From: Sphingomonadales bacterium Ga0077557
GTDB taxonomy: Bacteria; Pseudomonadota; Alphaproteobacteria; Sphingomonadales; Sphingomonadaceae
Direction: 5' to 3'
Length of the DNA stretch: 64,000 bases
Assembly: GCA_001464615.1 (NCBI GenBank)
Contig: LNFI01000032.1
Span: forward strand, 186,001 to 250,000
Below are positions 44,150-58,440 of the stretch, one piece after another; the stretch's first letter is position 1, and each line of letters opens with the position of its first letter. Made by a program: the position numbers and the translations under genes. Below the pieces are notes generated by a model. It was not told where the DNA came from and did no database searches. It saw only the letters and a program-made list of their open reading frames with translations.

Positions 44150-45007
44150 TTAACCGCCCAGCCGCGCGAGCAACAGATAGGCCAAGCGGGCGGTGTCAGG
44201 CGTTGGCCGCAGCAGCGATTCCGCGCGGTTGACGCCCCCCTGCAACTGATCGAGCGTTGCCTGGGCCCAGCGGGTTGCGCCGCTTTTGCTTTCGCCATTG
44301 CCGGGAATAATTTCTGCGCCGCCGCCGTCACTGGGGCTCAGACCACCAGAGGCAAGCCCGGTCGCCCCGACGGCAGCGGCACCGCGATCAAGCTTGGCAG
44401 AGAAGCGGTCGTAAATGTCGCTGAGCGAGCGTGGCTGGCCACCCTCGCTGTAGAAAATGTTGCGATTGGCGCGTGCGGCGGCGGGAAACAGCGCCGCCCC
44501 GGCCTGATCGGGATTGGCCTGCAGGTTCTTCAGGAAGCTGCGCGCGCCGCCCAGGCCCAGGAAGTGCGCCATATAGAGATCGGTGCCCGTTGCGGTTCTG
44601 CCAAGGCTGTCTTCGATCGAAACCTTATTGTCCGCTGCATGTTCCGCGGCCATCAATGACGCGGCATTAGGGTCATTGCGCAACGCCAGGATCGCGCGGC
44701 GGGTGCCGGGATCATTCACGGTCAGCCGACCATTGGCCCCCTGGGTGATGTTTTCGGCGGCCCAACCCAGGCCATGTTCGGCGCCATGTTTCTTGACGAC
44801 CGACAGCCAGCTTTGTTCGATGAATTGATAGAGCCCGGAGGCGCTTGAGGTGCCGGCCTTGGCGTCGGGCCGCAGGCCGCTTTCAACTTGCGCCTGGCCG
44901 AGCAGATAATTGAAATCCACGCCCGTTCTGGCCGATGCCAGCGCGATCGCTGACTGGATCGTGCCGCGGACCGCGCCGTTCGCCTTGTCGATTGGAATAA
45001 CGCTCAT
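44150..45007 (-). CDS. flagellar lytic transglycosylase (SLT domain)
   Basis: A peptidoglycan-cleaving enzyme, 285 residues, probably opening the wall for the rod. The SLT fold shows DFNYLLGQAQVESGLRPDAK (catalytic glutamate in VES, about residue 43), SSASGLYQFIEQSWLSVVKK, the DPGTRRAILALRND helix and TDLYMAHFLGLGGARSFLKN. No signal peptide is visible, so it is probably exported by the flagellar system or needs FlgJ for targeting. FlgJ of this cluster (53930) lacks a muramidase domain, so this enzyme likely supplies that activity. Upstream is a near-perfect sigma54 promoter; flhA and fliA follow. Confidence 0.88.
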   Translation of the reverse strand: MSVIPIDKANGAVRGTIQSAIALASARTGVDFNYLLGQAQVESGLRPDAKAGTSSASGLYQFIEQSWLSVVKKHGAEHGLGWAAENITQGANGRLTVNDPGTRRAILALRNDPNAASLMAAEHAADNKVSIEDSLGRTATGTDLYMAHFLGLGGARSFLKNLQANPDQAGAALFPAAARANRNIFYSEGGQPRSLSDIYDRFSAKLDRGAAAVGATGLASGGLSPSDGGGAEIIPGNGESKSGATRWAQATLDQLQGGVNRAESLLRPTPDTARLAYLLLARLGG

Positions 45008-45042: not shown

Positions 45043-45058
45043 AGCAAGGAGCGTGCCA
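45043..45058 (-). promoter_or_regulatory. sigma54 promoter of the lytic transglycosylase-flhA-fliA unit
   Basis: On the minus strand TGGCAC (45058-45053), GCTCC, TTGCT (45047-45043): the consensus -24/-12 elements with the exact GG to GC spacing. Predicted start about 45032, 25 bases before the ATG at 45007. FlbD (16033) is the likely activator. The palindrome at 45074-45089 and TTGCCGGCA-like bases further upstream are possible activator sites. Confidence 0.85.
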
Positions 45059-45092: not shown

Positions 45093-45410
45093 TCAGGCAA
45101 AGCTGCCGGCAAGCGCCGCGCCGCGATAGCCCGTCGCGCCGTCGCCCGTCAGCTGCTGAAGTCGGCGGCGGACATTGGCGCTCATCAAATTGACATAGAT
45201 GCGGCAGGTTTCGTTCAGTCGGTGCGCTTCTTCGGCAAGGGCCCGGATATCCGGGGTTGGCGCGCCGTCTCTAGCCGCAGCGATTGTGTCGATCGCCACC
45301 AATTTGGTGCGGGTGGCGCGTTCCAGCCCGGCGACGTCATTTGCTTTCAGGGCGGCGATCTCGGCATGCAGCGCGTCGATCACACGGACCAGGGCATCGC
45401 GGCGGGTCAT
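45093..45410 (-). CDS. flgN: FlgN-like flagellar export chaperone
   Basis: A 105-residue cytoplasmic, mostly helical protein that should bind hook-filament junction proteins FlgK and FlgL. Typical features are a N-terminal helix pair (RRDALVRVIDALHAEIAALK, ATRTKLVAIDTIAAARDG) and the C-terminal amphipathic helix LNETCRIYVNLMSANVRRRL, where substrate binding is known in FlgN. Sequence identity in this family is low, so the call depends on the helical pattern and the position directly after flgM, with an ATGA overlap. The N-terminal start is set by that overlap. Confidence 0.72.
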   Translation of the reverse strand: MTRRDALVRVIDALHAEIAALKANDVAGLERATRTKLVAIDTIAAARDGAPTPDIRALAEEAHRLNETCRIYVNLMSANVRRRLQQLTGDGATGYRGAALAGSFA

Positions 45411-45694
45411 TCCGGTTTCCAGTTCAGTCGGATCGCGATCAGCCGATCGGCGACAGTTTCGGGCAGGATGGGATAGCTGTTATTGGCGATAGCATGCCGG
45501 ATTCGCGCGACCCGTTCGGCATCGACGGGCGGTTTTGCTGCAAATTCGGCGACCAAACCAGCAAGCCGACCGCTTGGTGCCGCCTCTGCCTCATTCTGCA
45601 CGACCGACCGTGAACGGTCGATCGGCGCCGTTTTCGCCACTGCGGCGAGCGACCTATCTTGTGCTACCGGCTTTGCACCGATCGGATCCACCAT
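45407..45694 (-). CDS. flgM: negative regulator of flagellin synthesis, anti-sigma28 FlgM
   Basis: The exported anti-sigma factor that holds FliA inactive until the hook is complete. The 95 residues are mostly disordered in the N-terminal half (rich in alanine and proline) and have the conserved FliA-binding C-terminus: PPVDAERVARIRHAIANNSY, PILPETVADRLIAIRLNWKPE, close to the FlgM consensus (the VARIRxAIxxGxY motif). ATG at 45694 follows a candidate sigma28 promoter by about 50 bases, as expected for a class-3 gene under feedback. It overlaps flgN. Confidence 0.92.
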   Translation of the reverse strand: MVDPIGAKPVAQDRSLAAVAKTAPIDRSRSVVQNEAEAAPSGRLAGLVAEFAAKPPVDAERVARIRHAIANNSYPILPETVADRLIAIRLNWKPE

Positions 45695-45776: not shown

Positions 45777-46301
45777 TTACAGATTGAAGCCGGGCACGGC
45801 GGCATGGCCTGGTTCGAGAGCAATCGCCTGGATTGGTTTCTTGACCCCGTCGACATCGACCAGCAATCGACCGCCTGCCACCGCATCGGTCATCGCAACG
45901 CCGTCGCGCGTGATCGAAAAGCCTGGCGCGCCGGCTTCGACCATGACTGGGTCACCCCGTTTGATCACGACCTGCGGCTTTGCCGGGGCTGGCGCCGCTG
46001 CCGCCGCGGGGGCGGAAATCGGCGTTGGGGCAAGGATTACCGGTACATAGACGCGCCATTCAGGGTCGGTGCAGCTGACCACCACTGAATCGTGATTGGC
46101 TGCCCGCCATGACATCGACACCATCGCGCAGGACGCCAGTTTCAACCGCGCATCAACCGGCGCACGTGCGCCGCCTTCGCTGCCAATCGGCTTGCCGGTG
46201 AAATTTGCCACCCCGCGATCGATCACGCTGGTATCCTGGAACCCCGTCTGCGCCGCGGCTGGGCTGGCGATCAGGGCGGTGCAAAGCAGTAAGCGGTACA
46301 T
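45777..46301 (-). CDS. flgA: flagellar P-ring assembly chaperone FlgA
   Basis: A periplasmic chaperone for FlgI polymerisation. The 174 residues have a signal peptide (MYRLLLCTALIASPAAA), cysteines in LASCAM and VVSCTDPEWR that fit the FlgA disulfide, and the C-terminal SAF-type domain: VIKRGDPVMVEAGAPGFSIT and the ending RDGVAMTDAVAGGRLLVDV with PIQAIALEPGHAAV. An alanine/proline hinge separates the two parts. The ATG at 46301 is preferred over an upstream in-frame ATG because AAGGAG precedes it and the signal peptide begins there. It follows the motB-like gene after a 56-base gap. Confidence 0.9.
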   Translation of the reverse strand: MYRLLLCTALIASPAAAQTGFQDTSVIDRGVANFTGKPIGSEGGARAPVDARLKLASCAMVSMSWRAANHDSVVVSCTDPEWRVYVPVILAPTPISAPAAAAAPAPAKPQVVIKRGDPVMVEAGAPGFSITRDGVAMTDAVAGGRLLVDVDGVKKPIQAIALEPGHAAVPGFNL

Positions 46302-46357
46302 GATTTTCTCCTTGGAAAATTGCCGCAGGCGGCAAAGCGGCATTGCCGGGCGGCAGA

Positions 46358-46876
46358 TCATGGCCGCTTCCCGTCAAAGCCAATCGTTAGCGTGACGGCA
46401 CGGCGGCCAGGCACTGGATCAGTGGTGATTGTCAGGCGATCGGCCGAGATCGCGCCGGCAGCGACAAGCGCGACGGCAACGGCGCGGGCGCGATCAGCGG
46501 CGAGGATGGTCCCGCTGCCCGTTTCTGGCTCGACATCGGCGGCCGTGCCATCGACCGCGCCCGACAGGCGCAAGCGCACGCGCGGATCGCTGGCCGCACT
46601 GCGCGCCCATTGGCTGATTGCTGCTGCTGATTGGGGCAAAATGCTAGACCCAGGGGCAAAGTCGCCCATCGCGGCCACCGCCACGGGCATTGGATCAGCA
46701 ACCCGCTCTGTAATCCCGAACCCTTCGCGCAAGCCAGTGGCCAGCGCCTCTTTGTCGAGCCGCTGATTGGCCTGGAGCAGCACGAAAAAGCCGACCAGCA
46801 ACAAGGCGAGATCGGCAAGCGTGACCAGCCAGATCGGTCGTCCGGGCGGAACGACGGGGAAGAAATCGTCGCTCAT
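46358..46876 (-). CDS. MotB/PomB-like stator subunit, degenerate OmpA domain
   Basis: A 172-residue membrane-anchored stator partner, paired with the motA-like gene just upstream (overlap ATGA). The N-terminus has one transmembrane helix with the ion-binding aspartate: PIWLVTLADLALLLVGFFVL (residues about 14-33), of PomB-type pattern. The periplasmic part resembles an OmpA/MotB domain in its last half (LAADRARAVAVALVAAGAIS), but the canonical peptidoglycan motif NGHTD is replaced by LSGAVDG, and the domain is shorter than in the second MotB (57535). Whether it binds the wall is uncertain. It lies directly upstream of flgA in the same direction. Confidence 0.75.
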   Translation of the reverse strand: MSDDFFPVVPPGRPIWLVTLADLALLLVGFFVLLQANQRLDKEALATGLREGFGITERVADPMPVAVAAMGDFAPGSSILPQSAAAISQWARSAASDPRVRLRLSGAVDGTAADVEPETGSGTILAADRARAVAVALVAAGAISADRLTITTDPVPGRRAVTLTIGFDGKRP

Positions 46877-47550
46877 GCAGCACTCCGCTCGCGCAGCGGC
46901 GGCTGGTCGCGGTGGCGGGGCAGCTCGCGCAGGGCGATCGCCGCTAATGGTGTCTCGATCCTTAGCCGCTCAAAGGCTTCGATCCGCGCCTGGCGGCGGA
47001 GCCGGGCGGCAATCGGCATGGCGATCAGACTGGCGATCAGCGCGCCATAGAGCGTCGCGAGCAGCGCTACCGCCATCGCCGCGCCAATCGCGCTGGGGTC
47101 ATTCATCGATACGAACATCTTGACCAGACCGATCAGCGTACCGACCATCCCCATTGCCGGGGCAACTTCGGCGGCCGACGCCCATACTTCGGCGGCGGCA
47201 AGATGGCGTTCGATCCGTGCCTGGCGTGCCTGACGAACGATCGCGTGGACCGCCTCGGCATCGGCGCCATCGACAATGGCGGCAATCGCCACCGACACAT
47301 CGGCATCGGCAATTACAGATCGATCAAGCGTCATCACGCCGTGGCGCGCGGCAATTCGCCCCAGGGCGGCAATTTGGTCAAGCAGGGGATCGGCCCGAAA
47401 CGGGCGGCGAAGCAACACCGGTAACGCGGTGACCGCGCGGCCCAGATCACCCAGCTGCGTGCGCAGCACGGTGGCGATCAGCGTACCGCCACCGACAATG
47501 CCAATCGCGGCAGGATCAAGATAGGGCGCGAGTGCGTGGGCAAAGGTCAT
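46873..47550 (-). CDS. MotA/PomA-like stator subunit
   Basis: An inner-membrane stator channel subunit of about 225 residues. It shows the PomA-type core EVAPAMGMVGTLIGLVKMFV (third helix), the NDPSAIGAAMAVALLATLYG segment and ALIASLIAMPIAARLRRQ, with a first helix near residues 15-30 and the cytoplasmic loop between. This subfamily differs from the MotA at 56668. The ATG at 47550 has a GGGGGAG about 9 bases upstream; the frame extends further but without family sequence. It heads the motB-like, flgA minus-strand set and diverges from flgB. ExbB/TolQ-like roles are a weaker alternative. Confidence 0.8.
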   Translation of the reverse strand: MTFAHALAPYLDPAAIGIVGGGTLIATVLRTQLGDLGRAVTALPVLLRRPFRADPLLDQIAALGRIAARHGVMTLDRSVIADADVSVAIAAIVDGADAEAVHAIVRQARQARIERHLAAAEVWASAAEVAPAMGMVGTLIGLVKMFVSMNDPSAIGAAMAVALLATLYGALIASLIAMPIAARLRRQARIEAFERLRIETPLAAIALRELPRHRDQPPLRERSAA

Positions 47551-47570
47551 GCTCATCATCTCCCCCGCGT

Positions 47571-47586
47571 AGCAAGGGCCGCGCCA
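47571..47586 (-). promoter_or_regulatory. possible sigma54 promoter of the motA-like gene
   Basis: On the minus strand TGGCGC (47586-47581), GGCCC, TTGCT (47575-47571): one base off consensus with exact spacing. The predicted start (about 47560) is only ten bases before the ATG, leaving the ribosome site outside or at the very 5' end of the mRNA. That geometry counts against it, so confidence is moderate. Confidence 0.4.
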
Positions 47587-47730: not shown

Positions 47731-47746
47731 TGGCACGGTGATTGCT
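47731..47746 (+). promoter_or_regulatory. sigma54 promoter of the flgB operon
   Basis: TGGCAC (47731-47736), GGTGA, TTGCT (47742-47746): consensus -24/-12 elements with the correct spacing. The predicted start is near 47757, 22 bases before the flgB ATG, leaving room for GGAG. It is the only promoter-like motif upstream of flgBCDEFGHIJKL. Confidence 0.88.
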
Positions 47747-47778: not shown

Positions 47779-48138
47779 ATGAACGTGGCAGACGACCTTC
47801 TTTTCGGTGTGCATGCAGCAGCGCTAGAGCTGCGCTCGCGGCGCATGGGGATGATTGCGTCGAACATCGCCAACGCGTCGACGCCCGGCTTCAAAGCCAA
47901 GGACATTGATTTCAAGGCGGCGCTTGCCCAGGCCAATGGGCCGCAGGGGCTCACCGATGCATCAGTTGCCAGCGCCACGAAATTTCGCGTGCCGCTCCAG
48001 GCCTCGCTCGACGGCAATACGGTTGAGTTGGCGAGCGAGCAGACCGCCTTTGCTGAAAATGCCGTCGCCTACCAGACGACCTTGTCTTTCCTGAATGGCC
48101 GGATTGGCCAGATCACCCGCGCATTGAGAGGCGAATAA
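47779..48138 (+). CDS. flgB: flagellar basal-body rod protein FlgB
   Basis: A proximal rod protein exported by the flagellar system. The 119 residues have the rod-protein N-terminus with the anchor SRRMGMIASNIANASTPGFK (about residues 23-42), then DIDFKAALAQANG and the C-terminal ENAVAYQTTLSFLNGRIGQI. The ATG at 47779 is chosen over upstream in-frame starts because it gives the family N-terminus and lies after the sigma54 promoter with GGAG close by. It is first in the flg operon; flgC follows after two bases. Confidence 0.95.
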   Translation: MNVADDLLFGVHAAALELRSRRMGMIASNIANASTPGFKAKDIDFKAALAQANGPQGLTDASVASATKFRVPLQASLDGNTVELASEQTAFAENAVAYQTTLSFLNGRIGQITRALRGE

Positions 48139-56667: not shown

Positions 56668-57531
56668 ATGTTTCCGATTATCGGCTTTGTCATCCTGATC
56701 GTCATGGTGTTTGGCGGCTTCGCCATCACCGGCGGCGCGCTTGAACCCGTGATGGAAGCCATTCCGCACGAAATGCTCATCATTGGCGGCGCCGCGGTCG
56801 GCGCGCTTGTCATCGGCAATTCGATGAAGGAGCTGAAGGCGGTTGGCGGCGGCTTGGTGAAGGTTTTCAAGGGCCCGCGCTACAAGAAGCAGGATTATCT
56901 CGACACGATTTTCCTGGTGTCCAAGCTGATGAAGATGCTGCGCACCGAAGGGCCAATCGCGCTTGAGCCGCATGTCGAGGATCCGACATCCAGCGCCATC
57001 TTCAGCGAATATCCCCGCCTGCTCGCCGATCATACATTGATCGCGCTGATCGCCGATACGCTCCGCCTGGTCGTCGTTTCATCGGGTACGCTTGATGTTC
57101 ACGCCGTCGAAGAGGTGATGGATAATACAATCAAAACCCATCATCACGAGGTGCAGGGCCCGCAGACCACGCTGCAGACGCTGGCCGATGCGCTGCCCGC
57201 GCTGGGCATTGTCGCGGCCGTGCTCGGCGTGGTCAAAACCATGGGCTCGATCGATAAACCGCCCGCCGTCCTGGGCGCGATGATCGGTTCGGCGCTGGTT
57301 GGCACCTTCATGGGCGTGTTGCTGGCGTACGGCCTTGTCGCGCCGCTGGCGGGCCGGTTGCAGCAGATCATCGATGCCGATGCCGCGATCTATCACACAG
57401 TCAAGCAGATCATCATCGCCTCGCTCCACGGCCATCCGCAGCCGCTGGTCATTGAGGCGGCTCGCTCGGGCATTGCCCATAGCAACCAGCCCGGTTTTGC
57501 CGAGGTATTTGACGGCTTGCGCGGGCGCTAA
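56668..57531 (+). CDS. motA: flagellar motor stator protein MotA
   Basis: The proton-channel stator subunit, 287 residues. It opens MFPIIGFVILIVMVFGGFAI and has four transmembrane helices (two N-terminal, two near residues 175-225), the cytoplasmic loop with LVSKLMKMLRTEGPIALEPH (the functional arginine and glutamate), and the C-terminal ALGIVAAVLGVVKTMGSIDK, MIGSALVGTFMGVLLAYGLV. It is the classic long MotA type, different in subfamily from the motA-like gene at 46873. motB follows after three bases, so the two are a unit. Confidence 0.96.
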   Translation: MFPIIGFVILIVMVFGGFAITGGALEPVMEAIPHEMLIIGGAAVGALVIGNSMKELKAVGGGLVKVFKGPRYKKQDYLDTIFLVSKLMKMLRTEGPIALEPHVEDPTSSAIFSEYPRLLADHTLIALIADTLRLVVVSSGTLDVHAVEEVMDNTIKTHHHEVQGPQTTLQTLADALPALGIVAAVLGVVKTMGSIDKPPAVLGAMIGSALVGTFMGVLLAYGLVAPLAGRLQQIIDADAAIYHTVKQIIIASLHGHPQPLVIEAARSGIAHSNQPGFAEVFDGLRGR

Positions 57532-57534
57532 ACT

Positions 57535-58440
57535 ATGGCCGCCCGCGCCCCCCACGGCACCAACCAGCCCCCCAAGGTCATCGTCAAGAAGATCTATATT
57601 GAAGGGCATGGCGGCCACCATGGTGGCGCCTGGAAGGTGGCCTATGCCGATTTCGTGACCGCCATGATGGCCTTCTTCCTGCTGATGTGGCTGCTCGGCG
57701 CGACGACGGAAAAGCAGCGCAAGGGCATTGCCGATTATTTCGCGCCGACAATCATCGATTCGCGATCAGAAGGCATTGGCGGCAGCGGCCTGTTTGGCGG
57801 CGATGTCATCAGCAGTTCATCACGCGTCGGCAAGGACGCCGGCACGTCCAGCACGCTCAGCCTCGTCCAGCCGCAAATGTCCGACGCAGGGGGCCCAAGG
57901 ATCGGCACCGGCGACCGCGGATCGCTGCGCAACCGCGAGTTCGAGATTCAGGATCGCAAGAACTTCGATCGCATCAAAGCGAGCGTATCGAAGCAGATGA
58001 CCGCCAGCCCCAAATTGCAAAAACTGGCCACGCATGTGAAGTTTGTACGGACCATTGAGGGCATGCGAATCGATTTGGTCGATAATGCCGATTATTCGAT
58101 GTTCGGCCTGGGGACGACGCTGCTCGAACCCGAAGCCGACAAACTGATCGGGCTGATCGCTGAATCGGTCAAGACACTCGATAACGCGATCATGATCCGC
58201 GGCCATACCGATAGCCTTGGCTTCAAGAATGCGGCCGGGATCAACAATTGGCTGCTTTCCAGCAGCCGCGCCGAGGCGACCCGGCGTCGCCTTGCCCAGG
58301 ATGGCTTGCCCGATAGCCGGTTCGAACGGATCGAAGGCGTTGCTGACCGCGAGCCGATGATCAAGTCTAACCCAGCCGATCCGCGCAATCGCCGGGTGTC
58401 GATCACGATGCTGTACCGCAAGAGCATATTCGGCCGATAA
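57535..58440 (+). CDS. motB: flagellar motor stator protein MotB
   Basis: The peptidoglycan-anchored stator subunit, 301 residues. A basic N-terminus with a histidine-glycine run is followed by the transmembrane helix AYADFVTAMMAFFLLMWLLG with the proton-binding aspartate (about residue 40), a linker, and a periplasmic OmpA-like domain: LGTTLLEPEADKLIGLIAES, IMIRGHTDSLGFKNAAGINN (GHTD present), and SSSRAEATRRRLAQDGLPDS, FERIEGVADREPMIKSNPAD, PRNRRVSITML. All family features are intact. Confidence 0.96.
   Translation: MAARAPHGTNQPPKVIVKKIYIEGHGGHHGGAWKVAYADFVTAMMAFFLLMWLLGATTEKQRKGIADYFAPTIIDSRSEGIGGSGLFGGDVISSSSRVGKDAGTSSTLSLVQPQMSDAGGPRIGTGDRGSLRNREFEIQDRKNFDRIKASVSKQMTASPKLQKLATHVKFVRTIEGMRIDLVDNADYSMFGLGTTLLEPEADKLIGLIAESVKTLDNAIMIRGHTDSLGFKNAAGINNWLLSSSRAEATRRRLAQDGLPDSRFERIEGVADREPMIKSNPADPRNRRVSITMLYRKSIFGR

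Follow-up and report, generated by a model that had tools for sequence, protein, structure and literature searches.

The window, by which we mean the whole 64,000-nucleotide stretch of DNA that was analysed, carries at the head of its flgA operon two overlapping minus-strand genes, here called A and B. Gene A (46873..47559(-), 228 aa) encodes a PomA-type channel subunit without the transmembrane helix TM1, as judged from frames, profiles, structure search, tree and model, and gene B (46358..46876(-), 172 aa) encodes a short partner of PomB/MotB type, as judged from frames, profiles and model. The two genes overlap by 4 nt, as do B and flgA (45777..46361(-)). An flgM-like gene (45407..45694(-)) and an flgN-like gene (45093..45410(-)) follow, giving the operon order A-B-flgA-flgM-flgN, while flgB (47779..48138(+)), the first of the divergent rod and hook genes, lies on the opposite strand and diverges from A. 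The name flgA comes from the first-pass annotation, gene order and presumed family features, and flgM, flgN and flgB are likewise named from gene order and presumed family features. Between A and flgB lie two putative sigma54-type -24/-12 sites, scored against what we assume to be the consensus: TGGCGCGGCCCTTGCT (47571..47586(-)), separated by 11 nt from A's first ATG, and TGGCACGGTGATTGCT (47731..47746(+)), which belongs to the divergent flgB operon. A further site of this type, TGGCACGCTCCTTGCT (45043-45058(-)), with 12 of the 12 consensus letters, stands between the flgN-like gene and a FlgJ-type muramidase gene (44150-45007(-)) and suggests a putative second promoter within the flgA operon. 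The cluster also holds a classic four-TM motA (56668..57531(+); TIGR03818, 345.1 bits) and a classic motB with a full OmpA domain (57535..58440(+), from Pfam profiles), used here as comparison genes. The first-pass annotation had described a MotA-like and a short MotB-like gene as a unit beside flgA, and frames and Pfam profiles confirm both genes; its start for A, at 47550, proved to be the third in-frame ATG, the first giving 47559.

This arrangement recurs well beyond the window. We annotated 78 family loci, of which 35 belong to the same genus and 43 to other genera. In all 78, flgB lies upstream of A and diverges from it; flgA is downstream in 76 (the other two being contig ends), and a partner ORF adjoins A in 77, the 78th stopping at a contig end. 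Purifying selection on both genes is clear, with dN/dS of 0.05-0.23 for A and 0.06-0.32 for B (12 pairs each). Because gene order is kept in the 78 family loci and dN/dS stays within 0.05-0.32, A and B are a genuine conserved gene pair and not chance ORFs. The closest named relatives, among the matches listed, are Sphingomonas species, the best being 72% identical (Sphingomonas sp. ERG5), so the DNA very probably belongs to Sphingomonas or to a genus close to it.

Gene A belongs to the MotA_ExbB family of Pfam (84.9 bits), and its best NCBIfam model is PomA, with 144.7 bits against 17.8 for ExbB and 16.8 for TolQ; this score is below the curated cut-off of the PomA equivalog NF006527 (341 bits), and the match runs from residues 2-209 of A to positions 18-226 of the model only. 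PomA is also the best PDB match (E 6.4e-31), in an alignment that begins at PomA residue 16-18. The AlphaFold2 model of A, built on a 34-row alignment with a mean pLDDT of 92.9, has a helix at 6-13 in the place of the PomA periplasmic interface (PI) helix, another at 16-33 equivalent to TM2, cytoplasmic helices between TM2 and TM3, and two long helices (101-150 and 155-211) that contain TM3 and TM4. It has no helix before PI/TM2, that is, no counterpart of TM1, and the four-helix square fold is absent. The best solved match of this model in Foldseek is PomA 8brd (TMq 0.81), and ExbB/TolQ structures among the 50 rows listed reach a TMq of at most 0.55, with a best E of 2.3e-3.

A TM1 overlooked through a wrong start was ruled out by the position of the sigma54-type site, by short open frames and by low upstream hydropathy. 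The site stands immediately before A, so that there is no room for a TM1. The open frame before the conserved Asp15 is shorter than 30 aa in 19 of 76 A loci, and in divergent genera many open frames start just 7-23 aa before this residue. Where the open frame is long enough, which is so in 59 of the 76 A loci (17 had too little for the measurement), the in-frame 19-residue mean hydropathy upstream of Asp15 is at most 1.62, against at least 2.08 for the TM1 of 19 out of 19 PomA proteins from other families of the order. Gene A is a PomA-type channel protein that has lost TM1; its initial description as MotA-like was right about the family and had overlooked the absence of this helix.

To place A by descent we used a quick maximum-likelihood tree (75 rows, 193 columns, TM1 columns excluded; SH-aLRT without bootstrap), in which the 31 TM1-less rows, drawn from 76 available A rows, form one clade (SH-aLRT 99) inside the PomA group (support 93), with several long branches and with the nearest PomA group not separated. 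The PomA group with A stands apart from MotA (97) and from the genome's own ExbB/TolQ. Beyond the order, the comparison for TM1-less forms covered 16 PomA rows from other groups. Trees and residue counts exclude L021 and L048, which are broken or reach the end of a contig, and L075, in which no start was found, was dropped. The MotA_ExbB family has four matches in the genome: besides A and MotA, there is a TolQ-like gene with TolR- and TolA-like genes after it, and an ExbB-like gene adjoining two ExbD-like genes and one TonB-like gene (these neighbours named by eye). The channel-core strings from which the PomA subfamily had first been proposed stand as quoted, and profile scores, PDB matches, fold search and tree support that placement. 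The contrary outcome named beforehand, a placement with ExbB/TolQ, was looked for in the tree, the profiles and the fold and did not appear; descent from ExbB/TolQ is ruled out by the placement with PomA in all three.

Gene B matches MotB_plug of Pfam at 24.8 bits (cut-off 24) and OmpA at 20.9 bits, under the cut-off of 27.2. Its model (44 rows, mean pLDDT 90.3) has a membrane helix at 15-36 with Asp22, a plug-like helix at 42-52, in a stretch that aligns to the plug place of PomB, and an OmpA-like fold at about 63-167; the best solved matches are OmpA-like domains (3td3) and the MotB of H. pylori. The model thus gives B an OmpA-like fold, and peptidoglycan binding is predicted. Only some 26 residues separate the TM from the OmpA fold, whose first strand is at 63, the long MotB/PomB linker is missing, and the model has no helix of the MotB alpha1 kind. 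According to passages of PMC9093738, Salmonella MotB without residues 51-100 still works, and the periplasmic part must extend the alpha1 helix to the wall. An Asp lies in or beside the most hydrophobic stretch in all 77 partner ORFs, which were picked without requiring it; in the 68 B genes read, which were recognised partly by their Asp motif, its invariance is therefore no test. This is the aspartate (D22 in the window) already noticed in the partner helix. An alignment of 44 rows from these 68 genes, with most of the divergent B genes left out, has D109 in 33 rows and R129 in 43, at places where OmpA-like domains presumably carry the Asp and Arg that bind peptidoglycan. The periplasmic domain had been called shortened and devoid of the GHTD motif: the literal motif is indeed absent and its histidine is missing in the window, but the Asp and Arg places and the OmpA fold are kept.

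Conservation along the presumed path of the ions was counted in 76 A rows (34 from the genus, 31 from other members of the family and 11 from a divergent clade) and in 16 + 19 PomA rows for comparison. T141 (PomA T158), P134 and P182 are kept in all 76 A rows, Asp15 (at the place of PomA D31) in 75, and T169 (PomA T186) is Thr in 73 and Ser in 3. The place of PomA T185 holds Ala in the window and in 30 of the 34 genus rows, and Thr in 25 of the 31 other-family rows; at the T158 place the genome's own MotA carries Ala. Passages of PMC10374538 identify PomA T158/T185/T186 as the sodium site, and describe TM1 as lining the ion entry and as proposed to relay plug release. The first-pass idea that the two stator types use different ions is no more than suggested by the kept T158 and T186 places and by the Ala of the genome's own MotA at the former, given the Ala at the T185 place in most of the genus.

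The residues that would face the rotor are less uniform. The place of MotA E98 is acidic in 69 of the 76 A rows (34/34 in the genus, 31/31 in the other-family rows and 4/11 in the divergent clade), with Asp (D79) in the window. The place of MotA R90/PomA R88, which is Arg in all 35 canonical PomA rows, is Arg in 15/34 genus, 2/31 other-family and 6/11 divergent-clade rows of A; Lys adds 11 in the genus, for a total of 26/34 with Arg or Lys, and one of these two also occupies the following position throughout the genus (34/34). In the window this place holds Ala, followed by Arg. Conservation of the rotor-facing loop versus the pore is 0.68 versus 0.75 in the genus, 0.33 versus 0.65 in other genera and 0.38 versus 0.50 in the divergent clade; in PomA it is 0.54 versus 0.77 for other groups and 0.43 versus 0.81 for the order's four-TM proteins. 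Since the contrast between loop and pore is similar in the latter, divergence of the loop does not decide the function of A. On our reading, the ion-driven core of A-B is intact and under selection, and the changes lie around it: in the outer helix, in the rotor-facing charge pattern and in the reach of B.

The promoter region sets the pair apart from motAB. Each of 30 same-genus loci (L005-L034) has a -24/-12 site that matches 9-11 of the 12 consensus letters and whose end lies 11-14 nt upstream of the chosen start of A; the chosen start being the first ATG after the site, this spacing is not a fully independent measure. Measured independently of start choice in 46 named loci, a site with at least 10 of 12 letters precedes A in 43 and flgB in all 46, and no such site was found before motA (0/43), flgA (0/31) or flgM (0/43); the background, in random 160-nt windows, is 152/9200. 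These loci span 4-21 kb around A, and motA could be located in 43 of the 46. Outside the genus, a site reaching that threshold stands before A in 8/8 loci of the nearest relatives (L040-L046, L048), and in 0/15 (L047, L049-L062) and 1/20 (L083-L102) of further loci; beyond Sphingomonas and its nearest relatives the site is thus mostly absent, and the start of A was there set solely from frame length and hydropathy. Some genomes of L006-L034 occur again among loci L103-L148. The genetic setting ties A-B to the building of rod, hook and P ring rather than to motAB.

Across genomes A-B tracks the flagellum, although many flagellate genomes lack it. An A orthologue (56-68% identity) occurs in 31 of 36 same-genus relatives; of the five genomes without it, G018 has no FliG match, and G002, G023, G007 and G020 have FliG, with G007 and G020 being 84% and 79% complete. 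The G002 locus (L203), where motA, motB, flgI and a fliG of weak similarity stand among chemotaxis-like genes, seems to represent another flagellar system. Among 298 family genomes that are at least 90% complete, strong A is present in 141 and FliG in 194, with both in 138, A only in 3 and FliG only in 56, or A in 138/194 genomes with FliG versus 3/104 without, as counted by hand from two tables and uncorrected for relatedness. Strong A means a best E below 1e-10, a threshold of our own with no values between 3e-11 and 2e-9 and at most 9 candidates scored per genome. The three A-only genomes (G195, G300 and G301) are 90, 92 and 99% complete. A profile search of the 56 FliG-positive genomes without strong A recovered a fragmented A from G135 and a short one from G076, and found no A in the other 54, whose remaining matches were assigned, by their partial coverage and the length of their frames, to classic MotA or to other members of the family; A-B is therefore dispensable. 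The co-occurrence with flagellar genes for which the first-pass annotation proposed to look is borne out, A strongly tracking FliG and A-B being flanked by flgB and flgA.

Several individual loci illustrate what the flgB-flgA interval can hold. In one flagellate genome (G065, L208 9600-10900) flgB lies directly beside an flgA-like gene and A-B is cleanly absent; in another without A-B (G249, L211 11437-12905) two genes, FlgP- and FlgT-like by eye, lie between flgB and flgA. Of the 298 family genomes, 5, which belong to two genera, have a FlgT-like protein, and strong A was seen in none of these. In G076 (L184 1381-2166) a reduced A-like gene lies between flgB and flgA, with no recognised B.

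Set beside known systems, A-B shows a mixture of likenesses and differences: (i) with the sodium-driven PomA/PomB stator of Vibrio (8brd, 8bri) it shares the alignment of A to PomA 18-232, the T158 and T186 places, the prolines, and in B the Asp helix and plug-like stretch. In contrast, A lacks TM1, has Ala for T185 in the window and does not keep PomA R88, E97 and E99, and B, without linker, is 172 aa long where the PDB chains have 315-321. (ii) The four-TM PomA proteins found in other families of the order (L063-L082) are 31-38% identical to A over the matched part and, unlike A, have TM1 in 19 of 19 rows measured. Their genes are followed by an FlbD-like gene in 20/20 loci and by flhA in 19/20, with no adjacent pomB in L063 and L073, the two loci with all neighbours readable; MotB_plug genes lie elsewhere in the 11 order genomes with four-TM PomA that were searched. 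In L063 and L073 the gene is preceded by fliF-, fliG-, fliH- and fliN-like genes (by eye), and some genomes of the order have two neighbouring MotB_plug matches away from it (for example, G043 C1 at about 581 kb). (iii) The classic MotA/MotB of the same cluster belong to the same ion-channel superfamily and have MotB_plug and OmpA domains, but this MotA is of the MotA1 type with a MotA_N domain, has Ala at the T158 place, occupies a separate tree branch and has no sigma54-type site found upstream of its gene. (iv) ExbB/ExbD and TolQ/TolR also combine a three-helix A-type subunit with a short periplasmic partner, whereas A scores 16.8-17.8 bits against their profiles, has a TMq of at most 0.55 to them among the 50 rows listed and falls on a separate branch, and B, unlike ExbD/TolR, has an OmpA fold.

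As given in part of PMC12505986, flagellar stators are marked by a square fold of four helices, an interface that generates torque, a plug and linker and an expanded OmpA-type domain; the FIT/TGI4 (PomA) class also has four short helices in that interface and the contact charges R90 and E98 (MotA numbering). Measured against that portion, A-B has PomA descent and the OmpA fold, and has neither the square fold nor the long linker; for the torque interface the picture is mixed, with the acid at the E98 place mostly kept and the R90 place variable. The main text of that article contains neither 'sphingomon' nor 'tm1'. For Zymomonas ZM4, the relevant portion of PMC9797736 gives motB1-motA1 as ZMO0602-0603 and flgB as ZMO0614, and does not show an A-B pair. 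In the open-access literature, a scope that leaves most subscription journals outside, none of the matches listed describes a TM1-less stator or an A-B pair.

Our tentative reading, to which we give a probability of about 0.45, is that A-B would be a miniaturised, PomAB-derived and ion-driven unit of the flagellum, an accessory stator beside MotAB. Presumably five A subunits would surround two of B; ions (Na+ or H+) would bind Asp22 of B and pass the A ring at T141/T169, turning A around B. The cytoplasmic loop of A would then push the rotor through the conserved acid D79, at the place of MotA E98, and nearby Arg, Lys or His residues, with B anchored near the basal body instead of making the usual long reach to peptidoglycan. 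A promoter site of the rod and hook type stands before A, and motA showed no such site; the unit is therefore probably produced while the basal body is being built, and it could serve early, low-torque or sodium-supported rotation. In favour of a stator are the PomA placement, the ion-path residues, the E98-type acid in the genus and the other-family rows, the plug-like helix, the flagellar co-occurrence and gene order, the sigma54-type site and purifying selection. Against it are the variable R90 place, the E98 acid in 4/11 rows of the divergent clade and a rotor-facing loop that diverges outside the genus, as well as the absence of TM1, a B without alpha1 or linker and the dispensability of the pair.

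Because A has no TM1, the R90 place is not strictly kept and B has no linker, a non-motor role for A-B stays a serious rival. Its form, and the main rival to the stator reading though less likely than it, is a repurposed energiser, in which A-B, in the manner of TolQR/ExbBD, would move B by ion flow and drive, not the rotor, but a periplasmic step in flagellum building, for example the passage of the P ring or rod through the wall with FlgA, FlgI or a FlgJ-type muramidase. A three-helix A with a short B converges on the ExbB/ExbD layout, the operon and promoter type are common to flgA and flgB and not to motA, and neither a strict R90 equivalent nor a reach linker has been preserved; on the other hand, the plug-like helix and the OmpA fold are preserved, and so, except in one clade, is the E98-type acid. 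Moreover, the flagellate genomes of L208 and L211 still have flgA and flgB without the pair, so A-B is not needed for assembly there. A slightly more doubtful extension is that a stator was rebuilt as a three-helix, ExbB/TolQ-like energiser of a periplasmic assembly step, and had in this way gone back to the presumed ancestral architecture of stators.

In an improbable reading A-B is no motor in its own right: A, B or both would enter MotAB units or compete against them, and so adjust stator number, leak or switching. The presence of motAB in the same cluster, with motA located in most of the named loci around A (43/46), would suit such a modulator, but A and the genome's own MotA sit on separate, deep branches, and A has an adjacent partner in 77/78 loci and its own ion-path residues, which a mere modulator would not need. 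Very improbable is an ancestral PomAB degenerating toward loss: broken or reduced copies do occur (A in two frames in L048, A in two pieces in L183, a short A without recognised B in L184) and A is undetected in other genomes, yet dN/dS is 0.05-0.32 in 24 comparisons, the ion-path residues are conserved, and so are the promoter site and the overlap within the genus; we reject the degenerating relic on purifying selection. Finally, an ExbB/TolQ-family pair unrelated to the motor and beside flgA by chance would account for the three-helix topology and short partner, but is scarcely credible given the tree, profile and fold placement with PomA, the genome's own tolQ- and exbB-type genes elsewhere and the flagellar co-occurrence.

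Taken together, A-B descends from PomAB and stays with the flagellum in and beyond the genus, yet it has lost the square fold and the linker. The pair represents a natural test of which stator parts are needed for ion-driven rotation, of the role of TM1, and of the conversion of a stator to another ion-driven machine.
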